Below are positions 37,587 to 47,046 of a stretch of 64,000 nt of DNA, piece by piece. A program made the translations under genes and the position numbers. The stretch's first letter is position 1. Each line of letters opens with the position of its first letter. The notes beneath the pieces were generated by a model that was given only the letters and a program-made list of their open reading frames with translations, ran no database searches and was not told where the DNA came from. The DNA is taken from assembly GCA_947463785.1 (NCBI GenBank), contig CANHRG010000002.1, forward strand, positions 310,001 to 374,000, read 5' to 3'. Source of the DNA: Sphingobacteriaceae bacterium. GTDB taxonomy: Bacteria; Bacteroidota; Bacteroidia; Sphingobacteriales; Sphingobacteriaceae.

Positions 37587-38381
37587 ATGAAAAAATTTCT
37601 TTTATCTAGCGCAGCAATCTGCATGATTTCTGTGTTTAGCTTTGCTCAAAATCCTAATGAGGATACGCAGCAAACACAAAAAATTGGCTTCAATTATGCC
37701 TTTACTCACTTTGACAAACGCTTTAACGATCCTTGGCATTTAGCTTCTGTATCGTACAGTAAGCAACAAAAATGGGGATATACTGGGCTGAATTTGAATT
37801 ATGCGAACCGCTTTAACAAAAACGGCTCGGAATTAGAACTTGAGACCTATCCGAAATTTAAAAAAGGGATGTATGCGTATGTAGGCGGTGCTGCAAAACT
37901 TTCTAGCAATGCCTTATTCCCGAATTACCGTGTTGGTTTTTCACTTTATCAATCTCTCGGCCGGAAATTGGAATTGGAAACCGGTATCAGACACCTGGCT
38001 TTTGATCAGCAAACGGACGTATGGGTTTTAGGTTTAGGCAAATATATGGGCAATGCTTTTATCAACCTGCGTTCGTATTGGAGTCGAAATAACGGCAGAT
38101 GGAATGAGTCTTTTATTCTTTCCAGCAAATTTTACTTGAGCGATGACCGGTTTGACTACTTTTCTGTTAATGTGGGTACGGGTGTAGCCTTTGATGATCC
38201 AACACAAATCAACAACGTGGTTTATCAGTTGAATAGCCTCAGAGCCGGAGCAGATTACTCTAGGAATATCGGCAAAAAATCCATTATAAAGGCAGGATTT
38301 CAGTGGATTAATGAAGAATACCAGAACGATACCTATGGCAATCAGTTGGGTGCAAACATTGGATTTTACCAGAAATTTTAA
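37587..38381 (+). CDS. YaiO-family outer-membrane beta-barrel protein
   Basis: A signal peptide (residues 1-20, ending FSFAQ) precedes a 240-residue beta-strand-rich domain that ends in a terminal Phe typical of outer-membrane barrels (FYQKF). The opening IGFNYAFTHFDKRFNDPW and the repeated SVSYSKQQKWGYTGLNLNYANRF match YaiO-type barrels. These occur near glycosyltransferases of family 2 and HEAT-repeat proteins in Bacteroidota. A role as a polysaccharide export channel or a barrel coupling to it is inference. Its stop abuts that of the convergent GT2, so the two are not cotranscribed. Confidence 0.78.
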   Translation: MKKFLLSSAAICMISVFSFAQNPNEDTQQTQKIGFNYAFTHFDKRFNDPWHLASVSYSKQQKWGYTGLNLNYANRFNKNGSELELETYPKFKKGMYAYVGGAAKLSSNALFPNYRVGFSLYQSLGRKLELETGIRHLAFDQQTDVWVLGLGKYMGNAFINLRSYWSRNNGRWNESFILSSKFYLSDDRFDYFSVNVGTGVAFDDPTQINNVVYQLNSLRAGADYSRNIGKKSIIKAGFQWINEEYQNDTYGNQLGANIGFYQKF

Positions 38382-39794
38382 TTACCTGAAACCGTTTCTG
38401 CTCATTTTACCCCAAGCCTTTTTACCGGTTAGGAAATCGAAATTCCCTTTTATCTCCCAATAGAGAATTAATGGATGGTAGATGAATGGCTCCAGGAAAG
38501 AGAGTATCCATAATTTGATTAAATCTCGTCCGGAAGTATACTGTCGGTAAGAAAGCTCTTCGTAAATGATGGTTAATGTTGAAATTACCAATACAAAAGC
38601 GTAAACCATTGCAAAAAGTATCAGGGAATAGGTCCAATGAACTAGCCCCAATGCAACTAGTGTGACCAAAATAATCAGTCCTATAAACTCCAAAATTGGG
38701 CCTAGCCATTCTACCAGTAACCAATACGGGAAGCTAAGCATTCCAAGGGTACCGTATTTAGGATTAAATAGAATGTCCCTGTGCATCAATAAAGATTCTA
38801 GCGTTCCGCGACTCCAGCGGTTTCGCTGTCTGCCCAACACATTTAGATTGGCTGGGGCCTCTGTCCAGCACAAGGGCTCAGGAGTGTATACCAATTTGTA
38901 GGGAAGTTTGTGCTTGTGCATGTACTTACGCATACGGATTATCAGCTCCATATCCTCTCCTACGGTTTTAGTGCTGTACCCACCAGCTTTAATGACAATA
39001 TCTTTATCAAACAGACCCAAAGCACCCGATACAATCAGCAAGCCGTTGATTCGGCTCCAGGCTAATCTTCCCATTAAAAAGCCTCTTAAATACTCCAAAA
39101 CCTGAAATCTCGATAAGAGGTTGTCGGGCATATGAACTTTTACTAAACGGCCGTGTTGTACTTCACAAGAATTGGCAATTCTGACCACGCCTCCTGCCCC
39201 AATTACGCGTACTGGCTCGTCCATGAATGGTTTCACCAATTTCAATACCGCATCTGGTTCAATAATGCAATCTGCGTCGATGCACAGAATCAAATCGTTT
39301 TTGGCAACGTTGATCCCTGCATTTAAAGCATCGGCTTTCCCGCCATTCTCTTTATCAATAACCACCAGCCGTTCCAAAGCTTTACTTTCCGAACGGTATA
39401 TTCCGCGTACCGATTCTGTTTTAATTCGTGTATTGATGGCAAAATCAACTTTTACCAATTCAAAAGCCATGATTAACTGCCTCAACGTATCGTCTTTACT
39501 GCCATCGTTCACCACAACCACCTCGTAATTATTGTAATGAAGCGATAGCAACGATCGGACATTATCCACAATATTGGGCTCTTCGTTGTATGCCGGCGCA
39601 ATAATAGATACGCTCGGTGCAAACTCCGATACCAATAAGTTTCTATAATCTGTTGGTGTATTTTTGTGCAAATACCGCCTCATTTCCCAAGCAGAAAGAA
39701 GCGCAATAATTACATAGGAAAACATGACTGCTAAGGCATAGTAGAATATGAATTCCTGAAAAAATAGCTGAATGTAGTCGATTAAAATTTTCAT
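38382..39794 (-). CDS. Processive family-2 glycosyltransferase (polysaccharide synthase-like)
   Basis: The 470-residue protein has a membrane segment (about 15-34), a cytoplasmic GT-A domain (about 60-330) and further C-terminal membrane segments (about 350-420). The processive-synthase motifs are all present: VVVNDGSKDD, Asp173-x-Asp175 in IDADCI, the Glu280-Asp281 base in GEDMEL, and QxxRW at Gln323-Trp327 (RQRNRW). This resembles PgaC/BcsA/chitin-synthase-type enzymes. It is not a simple monomeric transferase. It follows a HEAT-repeat protein (14 bp) and a receiver protein on one strand, suggesting regulated synthesis and export of an extracellular polysaccharide. The sugar is unknown. Confidence 0.92.
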   Translation of the reverse strand: MKILIDYIQLFFQEFIFYYALAVMFSYVIIALLSAWEMRRYLHKNTPTDYRNLLVSEFAPSVSIIAPAYNEEPNIVDNVRSLLSLHYNNYEVVVVNDGSKDDTLRQLIMAFELVKVDFAINTRIKTESVRGIYRSESKALERLVVIDKENGGKADALNAGINVAKNDLILCIDADCIIEPDAVLKLVKPFMDEPVRVIGAGGVVRIANSCEVQHGRLVKVHMPDNLLSRFQVLEYLRGFLMGRLAWSRINGLLIVSGALGLFDKDIVIKAGGYSTKTVGEDMELIIRMRKYMHKHKLPYKLVYTPEPLCWTEAPANLNVLGRQRNRWSRGTLESLLMHRDILFNPKYGTLGMLSFPYWLLVEWLGPILEFIGLIILVTLVALGLVHWTYSLILFAMVYAFVLVISTLTIIYEELSYRQYTSGRDLIKLWILSFLEPFIYHPLILYWEIKGNFDFLTGKKAWGKMSRNGFR

Positions 39795-39808
39795 AGGATG
39801 TGGATTTT

Positions 39809-40927
39809 TTAAGCTAAAACTTGCTCAATCATTTCTTTAGTAATAGTAGGTGCCAATAAGTACGCTTTTCTGAGTTCAGAAATACCCGGTTCACCGTGAT
39901 TTTGTAGTGCTTGAGTAGCTTCAAATGCGATTTCGAAAACAGGAGAATTCACTGCCTCAAGTAAAAAGTTGAGTTGCTTACCCGATGCAATGCGGCCTAG
40001 AGCATGGATGATATCCACTTTTAGTTTATCATCAACAAGAGCGTAACGCTTTTCTAAACTTTCCTCAGCTTTAACGGCTTCAAACTCTCCTAAAACTTTA
40101 ATGGCTAACGATTGAATTTTGACATCAGGGTGCTCTAGAAGTTGGATAAGTTTATCTTGAGCTTCAAATTGCTGGAAGTGAAGTACTAACTTCAAGCAAA
40201 GTTCAACAACAGAAGAGTTAGAAGAATTTAACCAAGTTGAAAACAATGGCAGCTCCTTTAATTTGATGTGTGTAATTAGGTTAAGTAAAATCAGCTGATG
40301 CCATTCTAAAATAGGCTCATTCAATTCCTTCAAAAAATGGAATGAGTGGTGCTTATTCAAATAGATGTACGTGGTCTGTGCTTCAATCCTGATTTCTGAG
40401 GATTTACTGTAAATCAAGCGTTCAATTACAGGAGATAGATTTTCCAGCTGCATTTCTGCAGCCTCAAGTATGCCAGCAATTTTTGTACTGGAATCCCAAC
40501 TTTTTAACTTATGTTCGGTAAGGCTATCCAGTTTTAATTTCCTGAATAAATCCCTGAGTTTATCAGCCGAATTGCCGGTAAAATTACGGTGGTAATTGAT
40601 AACCTGCTTGTACAATAACTGCTTTATGTATGCCTTTTTTAAGGGCAATTGCTCAAATTCATGCACAGTTTTGCGTAGTGAATCAGCAGGATCGGCATTA
40701 TCCATACGCACCATAAACTGAGTCATAATTTCTACAATTTGAGCATTCCAATAGCGATCTCTCCGTTGCATATAATTCGAGATCATCCGCTTCGAAATCA
40801 AAAAGATGCCGAGTAAGCAGAATAGAGCCAGACAGATCAATAAGATCCAAAATGCTAAATAGACACGGGGAGGCAACTCATCTAGAAAACCTAAAATGAA
40901 CGTTGCATTAAAGCTAAACGTTTCCAT
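39809..40927 (-). CDS. Membrane-anchored HEAT-repeat protein
   Basis: The 372-residue protein has one membrane segment near the N-terminus (about residues 18-44, RVYLAFWILLICLALFCLLGIFLI), then a cytoplasmic stretch of alpha-helical repeats. Three helical pairs resembling HEAT motifs appear toward the C-terminus (ALGRIASGKQLNFLLEAVN, ALQNHGEPGISELRKAYL). The repeats suggest a scaffold for protein partners. It lies between the response regulator (one-base overlap, TAATG) and the GT2 synthase (14 bp), so a link between the receiver and the synthase is a fair inference. No enzymatic motif is visible. Confidence 0.85.
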   Translation of the reverse strand: METFSFNATFILGFLDELPPRVYLAFWILLICLALFCLLGIFLISKRMISNYMQRRDRYWNAQIVEIMTQFMVRMDNADPADSLRKTVHEFEQLPLKKAYIKQLLYKQVINYHRNFTGNSADKLRDLFRKLKLDSLTEHKLKSWDSSTKIAGILEAAEMQLENLSPVIERLIYSKSSEIRIEAQTTYIYLNKHHSFHFLKELNEPILEWHQLILLNLITHIKLKELPLFSTWLNSSNSSVVELCLKLVLHFQQFEAQDKLIQLLEHPDVKIQSLAIKVLGEFEAVKAEESLEKRYALVDDKLKVDIIHALGRIASGKQLNFLLEAVNSPVFEIAFEATQALQNHGEPGISELRKAYLLAPTITKEMIEQVLA

Positions 40928-41307
40928 TATCCAACAGGTTGTTTAATGTGTTTTTTTACACGCATCATTAATTCGGGCAAATTGAATGGCTTCGCAATAA
41001 AATCATCTGCACCCAGTGCAAAAGCTTCTAATATTACATTTTCTAGGCCATTTGCCGAGACGACAATAATTTGTGTGGAGGCTGTTTTTGGATCAGATTT
41101 TACCTTTTGGGTAATTTCTAAACCGCCAACGTAAGGGATCATGATGTCTACCAAAATAACATCAAACTGATGCTGCTCAATGAGCTCGAGGGCTTCACCG
41201 CCGTCTTTAGCCGGATATACGTCATAACCTTCTTTTTTGAGTCTAAATTCTACTACTTTTCTAACGAGTTCTTCATCCTCGATTACTAAAATTTTGGGAA
41301 TAGGCAT
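40927..41307 (-). CDS. Single-domain response regulator (receiver only)
   Basis: The 126-residue protein is a stand-alone CheY-like receiver: acidic pocket Glu10-Asp11 (IEDEE), phospho-acceptor Asp54 in ILVDIMIPYVGG, Ser84 in VVSANG and Lys106 in IAKPF. There is no output domain. It is first in the receiver-HEAT-GT2 operon and so probably works by protein contact with the HEAT protein or the synthase. No histidine kinase is in the window. The 162 bp before it hold no coding frame, only AT-rich DNA where the promoter must lie. Confidence 0.93.
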   Translation of the reverse strand: MPIPKILVIEDEELVRKVVEFRLKKEGYDVYPAKDGGEALELIEQHQFDVILVDIMIPYVGGLEITQKVKSDPKTASTQIIVVSANGLENVILEAFALGADDFIAKPFNLPELMMRVKKHIKQPVG

Positions 41308-41469: not shown

Positions 41470-41553
41470 GCCCAGGTGGCGAAATTGGTAAACGTTGCGG
41501 TCTCAGAAGCCGTTGCCCTAACAGGCTTGAGAGTTCGAGTCTCTCCCTGGGCA
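41470..41553 (+). tRNA. tRNA-Leu (anticodon CAG)
   Basis: This 84-nt class II cloverleaf has acceptor GCCCAGG / CCTGGGC, anticodon loop CTCAGAA (anticodon CAG, reading CUG), variable arm TTGCCCTAACAGGCTTGA and T-loop TTCGAGT. CCA is not encoded. Its relative GAG tRNA follows after 25 bp in the same transcript. Confidence 0.95.
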
Positions 41554-41578
41554 CAGTAGTTCTTTAAAATTGGGTATT

Positions 41579-41662
41579 GCCCGGGTGGCGAAATTGGTAG
41601 ACGCACCATCTTGAGGGGGTGGCGTTCGTAAGGACGTACGAGTTCGAATCTCGTTCCGGGCA
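41579..41662 (+). tRNA. tRNA-Leu (anticodon GAG)
   Basis: This 84-nt class II cloverleaf has acceptor GCCCGGG / CCGGGC, anticodon arm CCATC-TTGAGGG-GGTGG (anticodon GAG, reading CUC and CUU), a variable arm with GTTCGTAAGGAC and T-loop TTCGAAT. CCA is not encoded. The next base pair is the start of the convergent MBL gene end. Confidence 0.95.
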
Positions 41663-41666
41663 CTCA

Positions 41667-46395: not shown

Positions 46396-47046
46396 ATGCT
46401 GAATTTATTGGAACACTATATTGAAGAAGGCAAAAAAGAGGATTTGATTGAACTCTTAGTGCGCTTTCCTGAATTGGCTGATCAAAAAACCAGCAGGAAA
46501 TTGTCTCCAATACTATTTGCATGTTATTTAAAAAAACCTGAAATAGCTGAAATTTTGGTCGAATATATAGCAGAGCTTGGCTTATTTGAAGCTGCGGCCC
46601 TTGGGCGTTTTGATTGGGTTGCCCATCAGGTGTTTAAAAACCCTGAAGGTATTAATGAATACTCTGAACTCGGATTTACCGCATTGGGCTTAGCCATTTA
46701 TTTTGACCAAGAGGATATTACTAGATATCTCCTTTTGAAAGGAGCAGATGTGAATCAGCCCGCAAAAAATGCTTCAGGGTTGTACCCCCTACATTCTGCG
46801 TTGGTTGCTAAGAACAATTCCTTGGTTAAGATGCTGCTCGAAGCCGGGGCAGATGTAAATATTCAGGAAGTTTCGGGGATTACTCCCCTACATTTGGCAG
46901 CCAGTCAGGGAAACTTGGAAATCATAATTTGCCTGTTGGAGGCCGGAGCAGATGTACGGATTAAAACTAATGAAGGAAAAACACCAGGCGACTGGGCTGA
47001 AGATAATGGCTGGACAGCTATTGCCAGAATATTAAACGATTACTAA
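46396..47046 (+). CDS. Ankyrin-repeat protein (216 aa)
   Basis: Residues about 85 to 216 contain three to four ankyrin repeats: GFTALGLAIYFDQEDITRYLLLKGADVN, GLYPLHSALVAKNNSLVKMLLEAGADVN and GITPLHLAASQGNLEIIICLLEAGADV, followed by EGKTPGDWAEDNG. The N-terminal part (LVRFPELADQ..SPILFACYLKKPEIAEILV) is also repeat-like. Ankyrin repeats serve as protein-binding scaffolds; no partner or localisation signal is visible. The gene is divergent from ftsK and ends 1 bp before the convergent DUF2851 gene's stop. Confidence 0.9.
   Translation: MLNLLEHYIEEGKKEDLIELLVRFPELADQKTSRKLSPILFACYLKKPEIAEILVEYIAELGLFEAAALGRFDWVAHQVFKNPEGINEYSELGFTALGLAIYFDQEDITRYLLLKGADVNQPAKNASGLYPLHSALVAKNNSLVKMLLEAGADVNIQEVSGITPLHLAASQGNLEIIICLLEAGADVRIKTNEGKTPGDWAEDNGWTAIARILNDY

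Follow-up and report, generated by a model that had tools for sequence, protein, structure and literature searches.

The locus analysed here raises the question of what a receiver, a HEAT-repeat protein, a family 2 glycosyltransferase (GT2) and a YaiO-type barrel do together. The four genes lie at positions 37,587 to 41,307 of a stretch of 64,000 nucleotides (the window; contig CANHRG010000002.1) from a Sphingobacteriaceae bacterium, whose genome (GCA_947463785.1) is 1.81 Mb long and 99.5% complete. The analysis indicated that they probably form a synthase-dependent exopolysaccharide system. The synthase would have the HEAT protein as its obligate partner and would be switched by the receiver, acting through phosphorylation. 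Because the same gene set recurs in many bacterial phyla, the locus appears to represent an undescribed and widespread route for the synthesis and export of surface polysaccharide.

Architecture of the locus

The receiver (40927..41307), the HEAT protein (39809..40927) and the GT2 (38382..39794) are encoded in this transcription order by one operon of the minus strand, with an overlap of 1 bp between the first two genes and a gap of 14 bp between the last two. The YaiO gene (37587..38381) lies on the plus strand and is convergent with the operon, its stop codon abutting that of the GT2 gene. An earlier sequence-only reading of the window had described this layout, together with a receiver carrying Asp54, a one-segment membrane HEAT protein and a GT2 with the full processive motifs including QxxRW. 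The open reading frames (ORFs), the domain searches, the alignments and the structure model bore out all of these points. Two tRNA-Leu genes (cag and gag, 41470-41663) are present directly upstream of the receiver operon.

The GT2 matched the Pfam GT2 models (Glycos_transf_2, 92.7 bits), and its processive motifs D97, D173xD175, E280-D281 and Q323xxRW327 were invariant in an alignment of 12 related synthases. The locus therefore encodes the inner-membrane GT2 with DxD, ED and QxxRW that is expected of a synthase-dependent exopolysaccharide system. The receiver of 126 aa (Pfam Response_reg, 98.4 bits) showed no second domain above the Pfam cut-off and is a single-domain response regulator without output domain. 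Its pocket consists of E10/D11, the phospho-acceptor D54, S84 and K106, and among 60 receivers of the system Asp54 was kept in 54 and Lys106 in 59. For the HEAT protein (Pfam HEAT_2, 50.7 bits) the AlphaFold2 model (pLDDT 95.4) showed a single long N-terminal membrane helix and, after it, an alpha solenoid, and comparison of the model with the PDB returned HEAT/alphaRep and armadillo solenoids. The barrel belongs to the YaiO family with 169 bits in Pfam (1.3e-49; cut-off 23.9) and 131.7 bits for NCBIfam TIGR04390 (cut-off 32), and consists of a signal peptide and barrel only. The YaiO proteins of relatives are longer (410-580 aa) and carry an N-terminal TPR part before the barrel.

Linkage of the four genes

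Co-occurrence of the four genes, proposed as a check by the sequence-only reading, was analysed in 60 genomes of close relatives and then across phyla, where the linkage was found to recur. All 13 relatives bearing YaiO and all 12 bearing the HEAT protein also had a GT2 of the system clade, and the genes neighbour each other in nearly all relatives that bear them. The system was not present in two congeners of the window species. Fisher p values ranged from 3e-9 to 2e-11 (2e-11 for YaiO with GT2, 3e-10 for HEAT with GT2) and, given the shared ancestry of the 60 genomes, overstate independence. The conclusion that the four genes belong together is supported by these observations.

A scan with the GT2 alignment, using one genome per species, gave 80 loci picked by GT2 similarity alone, which are the best 80 of 506 and not a random sample. 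The neighbours of the GT2 were called with local profile models. In 71 of 75 loci the gene immediately before the GT2 encodes a HEAT protein, as it does in every one of the 60 with full context; among these 60 a receiver was near the GT2 in 48, YaiO in 39, and receiver, HEAT and YaiO together in 30. The background bins 5-10 kb downstream of the GT2 contained 0-1 matches for the receiver, HEAT and YaiO models, and the linkage is far above chance. Receivers 4-9 kb upstream were slightly commoner than background (3/66 and 5/56), as expected beside hybrid kinases. The hosts included Bacteroidota, Alpha- and Gammaproteobacteria, Bacillota (Paenibacillus, Brevibacillus, Clostridium), Bdellovibrio, Myxococcota and Gemmatimonadota, with further loci in Elusimicrobiota, Balneolaceae, Neomarinimicrobiota, Geobacter and Patulibacter; they were assigned from record titles, and some are contigs of metagenome-assembled genomes (MAGs) for which the assignment may be wrong. 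HEAT repeats were confirmed by Pfam in the distant loci of Stutzerimonas (L171) and Saccharibacillus (L166). Within the phylum Bacteroidota the HEAT profile matched 78 of 395 genomes; its lowest-scoring matches may reflect generic HEAT proteins.

HEAT and GT2 are the invariant pair of the system and the receiver is a frequent, not universal, input. The HEAT gene accompanies the GT2 in nearly every locus, whereas the receiver is absent from the searched range in about a fifth of them, so that HEAT is primarily a partner of the synthase. The same counts agree with another explanation, in which HEAT is a mere structural or assembly subunit of the synthase, like PgaD for PgaC, and the receiver acts elsewhere, as a phosphate sink or in a relay to a different output, so that its co-transcription would serve co-ordination alone; a solenoid, moreover, is an all-purpose binding surface. 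The receiver was nevertheless found 1.2-2.5 kb upstream of the GT2, which is the position adjoining the HEAT gene, in 40 of 72 loci. This placement in unrelated phyla, monoderms included, suggests a shared complex over loose co-regulation and leaves the purely structural role rather unlikely.

Variant arrangements were also seen. Two tandem GT2 genes follow the HEAT gene in L128, L130, L132 and L134, and in three of these a very large TPR-YaiO protein (about 955-1006 aa) comes after them. In some Bacteroidota DUF4838 proteins (L154:14266-16410 and L162:14691-16559) stand after HEAT-GT2 and a large TPR protein, which in L154 includes the YaiO barrel. A polysaccharide deacetylase-like protein is encoded at L111:7171-9060.

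The YaiO barrel as outer-membrane part

The distribution of YaiO was compared between hosts with one and two membranes. YaiO was found in 39 of 52 diderm loci and in none of the 8 monoderm loci (p = 8e-5); these monoderm loci keep HEAT in 8 of 8 and the receiver in 7 of 8. Because the barrel is confined to diderm hosts, this distribution marks YaiO as the outer-membrane part of the system, a role that the sequence-only reading had assigned to it. A dedicated outer-membrane barrel in diderms is a further feature of synthase-dependent exopolysaccharide systems, and its restriction to diderms is the pattern predicted for a dedicated export pore, from which we infer that a polymer is exported.

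A GT2 that glycosylates a lipid or protein, or makes a glycan of the inner envelope with no exported polymer, would leave the barrel as a separate neighbour. Single GT2s can act on lipids, and the YaiO gene of the window is convergent and outside the operon, as this explanation would have it. The complete set of processive motifs, the presence of YaiO in the same operon as the system genes in many relatives and the diderm-only barrel all stand against it and make it improbable.

Additional partners in relatives and the reduced form of the window lineage

The sequence-only reading had found no kinase in the window and had judged the system to be incomplete or to use partners elsewhere. No histidine kinase was found in the window here either, and parts are indeed lacking; the partners are not unknown, as the relatives show them to be hybrid kinases, the TPR domain of the barrel, an LtaS-like phosphotransferase and a GATase-fold protein. 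In L038, L039, L041 and L042 the receiver operon has histidine kinases, often hybrid, beside it or close by, and kinase genes are found directly upstream of the receiver in relatives. The GATase-fold protein (family c15, about 390 aa, for example L098:13512-14693) has no Pfam match, and its model showed a membrane-anchored GATase1/ThuA-like fold (pLDDT 75; Z about 15 over 202-208 residues). Members of the family also neighbour the system in Saccharibacillus and in a MAG of Myxococcota.

The LtaS-like protein, a membrane protein of about 680 aa with a Sulfatase domain, is a separate gene in L034, L035, L036, L038 and L040. The domain is fused to the C-terminus of the GT2 in proteins of 1134-1180 aa at L037:8161-11703, L039:8806-12255, L041:6615-10019 and L042:6437-9874, and it is joined to the GT2 in further loci. 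The Pfam Sulfatase match (122.6 bits) starts at residue 283, after the membrane domain; LtaS and OpgB-type phosphoglycerol transferases were the nearest NCBIfam models, none of them reaching its cut-off, and a phmmer alignment placed the catalytic Thr on that of LtaS. The transferase of the relatives probably adds a phospho-substituent, e.g. phosphoglycerol or phosphoethanolamine.

The form without the dedicated transferase and the TPR part is shared by the window species, G004 and G005. Loss in the window lineage appears to be the simpler reading, because the congener G002 (L036), of the same genus, still has both the transferase and the TPR-barrel. A dedicated LtaS-like gene was not found elsewhere in the window genome, which has only three distant paralogues (25-29% identity) that could serve as substitutes.

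It was also considered whether the window locus is a decaying, non-functional remnant of the full system in a 1.8-Mb genome. Decay would fit the absence of a dedicated LtaS-like gene, of the TPR domain of YaiO and of a neighbouring kinase, as well as the two congeners without the system and the degenerate GT2 paralogues of the family. The motifs, on the other hand, are all intact, the window genome has other LtaS-like proteins and kinases, and dN/dS between G004 and G005, both with the reduced form, was about 0.06 for YaiO, GT2 and the receiver. Of the four proteins, HEAT changes most quickly (63% identity in the same pair, against 88-92% for the other three), with saturated dS. These substitution rates indicate that the reduced form is under purifying selection, and a remnant is accordingly very improbable.

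Pseudo-synthases were observed in two receiver-HEAT-GT2 operons, where the GT2 is without DxD, ED and QxxRW (L044:7119-8483 and L046:8514-10031). L044 and the window locus share an FtsK/MBL site, and the genome of L044 has an intact GT2-LtaS fusion elsewhere. In the window an ankyrin-repeat protein (46396-47046) adjoins ftsK.

Relation to known systems

The HEAT-linked GT2s formed one clade of 94 tips with modest support (0.79), which excludes E. coli PgaC, YaiP, NfrB and BcsA as well as GH18-deacetylase-GT2 fusions of the same family. Membership of the poly-N-acetylglucosamine (PNAG; Pga/Ica) synthases was rejected on this position of PgaC and on a TIGR03937 score of 155.9 bits against a cut-off of 422.3. 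YaiP scored 33 bits with the system GT2 model against more than 450 for members, and the branching of NfrB and BcsA outside the clade likewise removed the NGR (NfrAB) and BcsA assignments.

Control by cyclic di-GMP (c-di-GMP) is unlikely because no GGDEF protein was matched in the window genome; the same search was positive in 8 of 14 control genomes. The system was hence not classed as a c-di-GMP-controlled synthase. This separates it from the PgaABCD system of E. coli, which it resembles in its inner-membrane processive GT2, in the nearest NCBIfam score (TIGR03937) and, in the relatives, in the TPR and barrel partner; the window system has a receiver and HEAT protein instead of c-di-GMP control and is without PgaB deacetylase or PgaD. 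NfrA-NfrB of E. coli (NGR/Nfr glycan) likewise pairs a GT2 synthase with an outer-membrane protein (PMC8669469, PMC8669472), but NfrB is activated by c-di-GMP. In the Bcs cellulose system with BcsG, a Sulfatase-fold transferase modifies the product of the GT2 synthase, a pairing shared with relatives of the window species, but BcsA is controlled by c-di-GMP and the transferase of the relatives is nearest to LtaS-type phosphoglycerol transferases. In the yaiO-yaiX-yaiP-yaiS cluster of E. coli the YaiO gene also adjoins a glycosyltransferase gene; its partners, however, are an acyltransferase and a deacetylase, without receiver or HEAT.

Synthase-dependent pathways are frequently regulated by c-di-GMP (PMC12802240). 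The closest published mechanism is that of EpsW in Myxococcus xanthus, a single-domain receiver that turns on exopolysaccharide synthesis post-translationally by direct contact with the phosphoglycosyl transferase EpsZ (PMC12802240), and it may serve as a precedent for receiver-driven activation. EpsZ belongs to a Wzx/Wzy pathway, without HEAT, GT2 synthase or YaiO. A paper on EmbRS of Rubrivivax concerned a LuxR-type regulator and a different cluster. Nothing published on a HEAT/YaiO/receiver/GT2 system was found in the open-licence PubMed Central (PMC) library.

Proposed mechanism and its implications

In the proposed mechanism the GT2 would polymerise sugar in the cytoplasm and thread the chain through its own membrane helices, with the HEAT protein, held in the inner membrane by one helix, as obligate cytoplasmic partner. 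A histidine kinase encoded elsewhere in the genome, for which an orphan-looking kinase at G000:C1:80946 (L210) is a candidate, would phosphorylate Asp54 of the receiver. The phosphorylated receiver may then switch synthesis on or off post-translationally; its target may be HEAT or GT2, and docking to the HEAT solenoid is the likeliest route. The polymer would cross the outer membrane via the YaiO barrel, and in relatives the LtaS-like transferase, fused to or beside the GT2, would decorate it with a phospho-group.

Several observations weigh against this mechanism. About a fifth of the loci have no receiver inside the searched range, and the YaiO gene of the window is on the strand opposite to the operon. 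Position was one of the grounds on which sequences had been added to the HEAT model, although the seed model before this extension had already matched 55 loci. No phenotype for the system was found in the open-licence PMC literature, and a natural fusion of HEAT with the receiver or with the GT2 was likewise not found. Fusion candidates were rejected: the N-terminal part of an apparent HEAT-GT2 fusion in L160 (an ORF of 1103 aa) is out-of-frame GC-rich sequence, and the long HEAT proteins of 723-855 aa (L120, L126) have a C-terminal extension without Pfam matches, not a receiver or GT2.

As a tentative proposal, the loci may represent an undescribed synthase class spanning phyla, whose GT2 is gated by a phosphorelay, and not by c-di-GMP, via a HEAT adaptor anchored in the membrane, and many of whose members use an LtaS-like transferase fused to the synthase to decorate the polymer. 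Gating by c-di-GMP is frequent among known synthase-dependent polysaccharide systems, and the window genome appears to be without this messenger. If the proposal is true, the receiver-HEAT-GT2 core, present in about ten phyla, would act as a general switch that controls surface polymers by phosphorylation and would account for orphan receivers and HEAT proteins beside GT2 genes. The LtaS-GT2 fusions suggest that Bacteroidota have phospho-decorated surface polymers.

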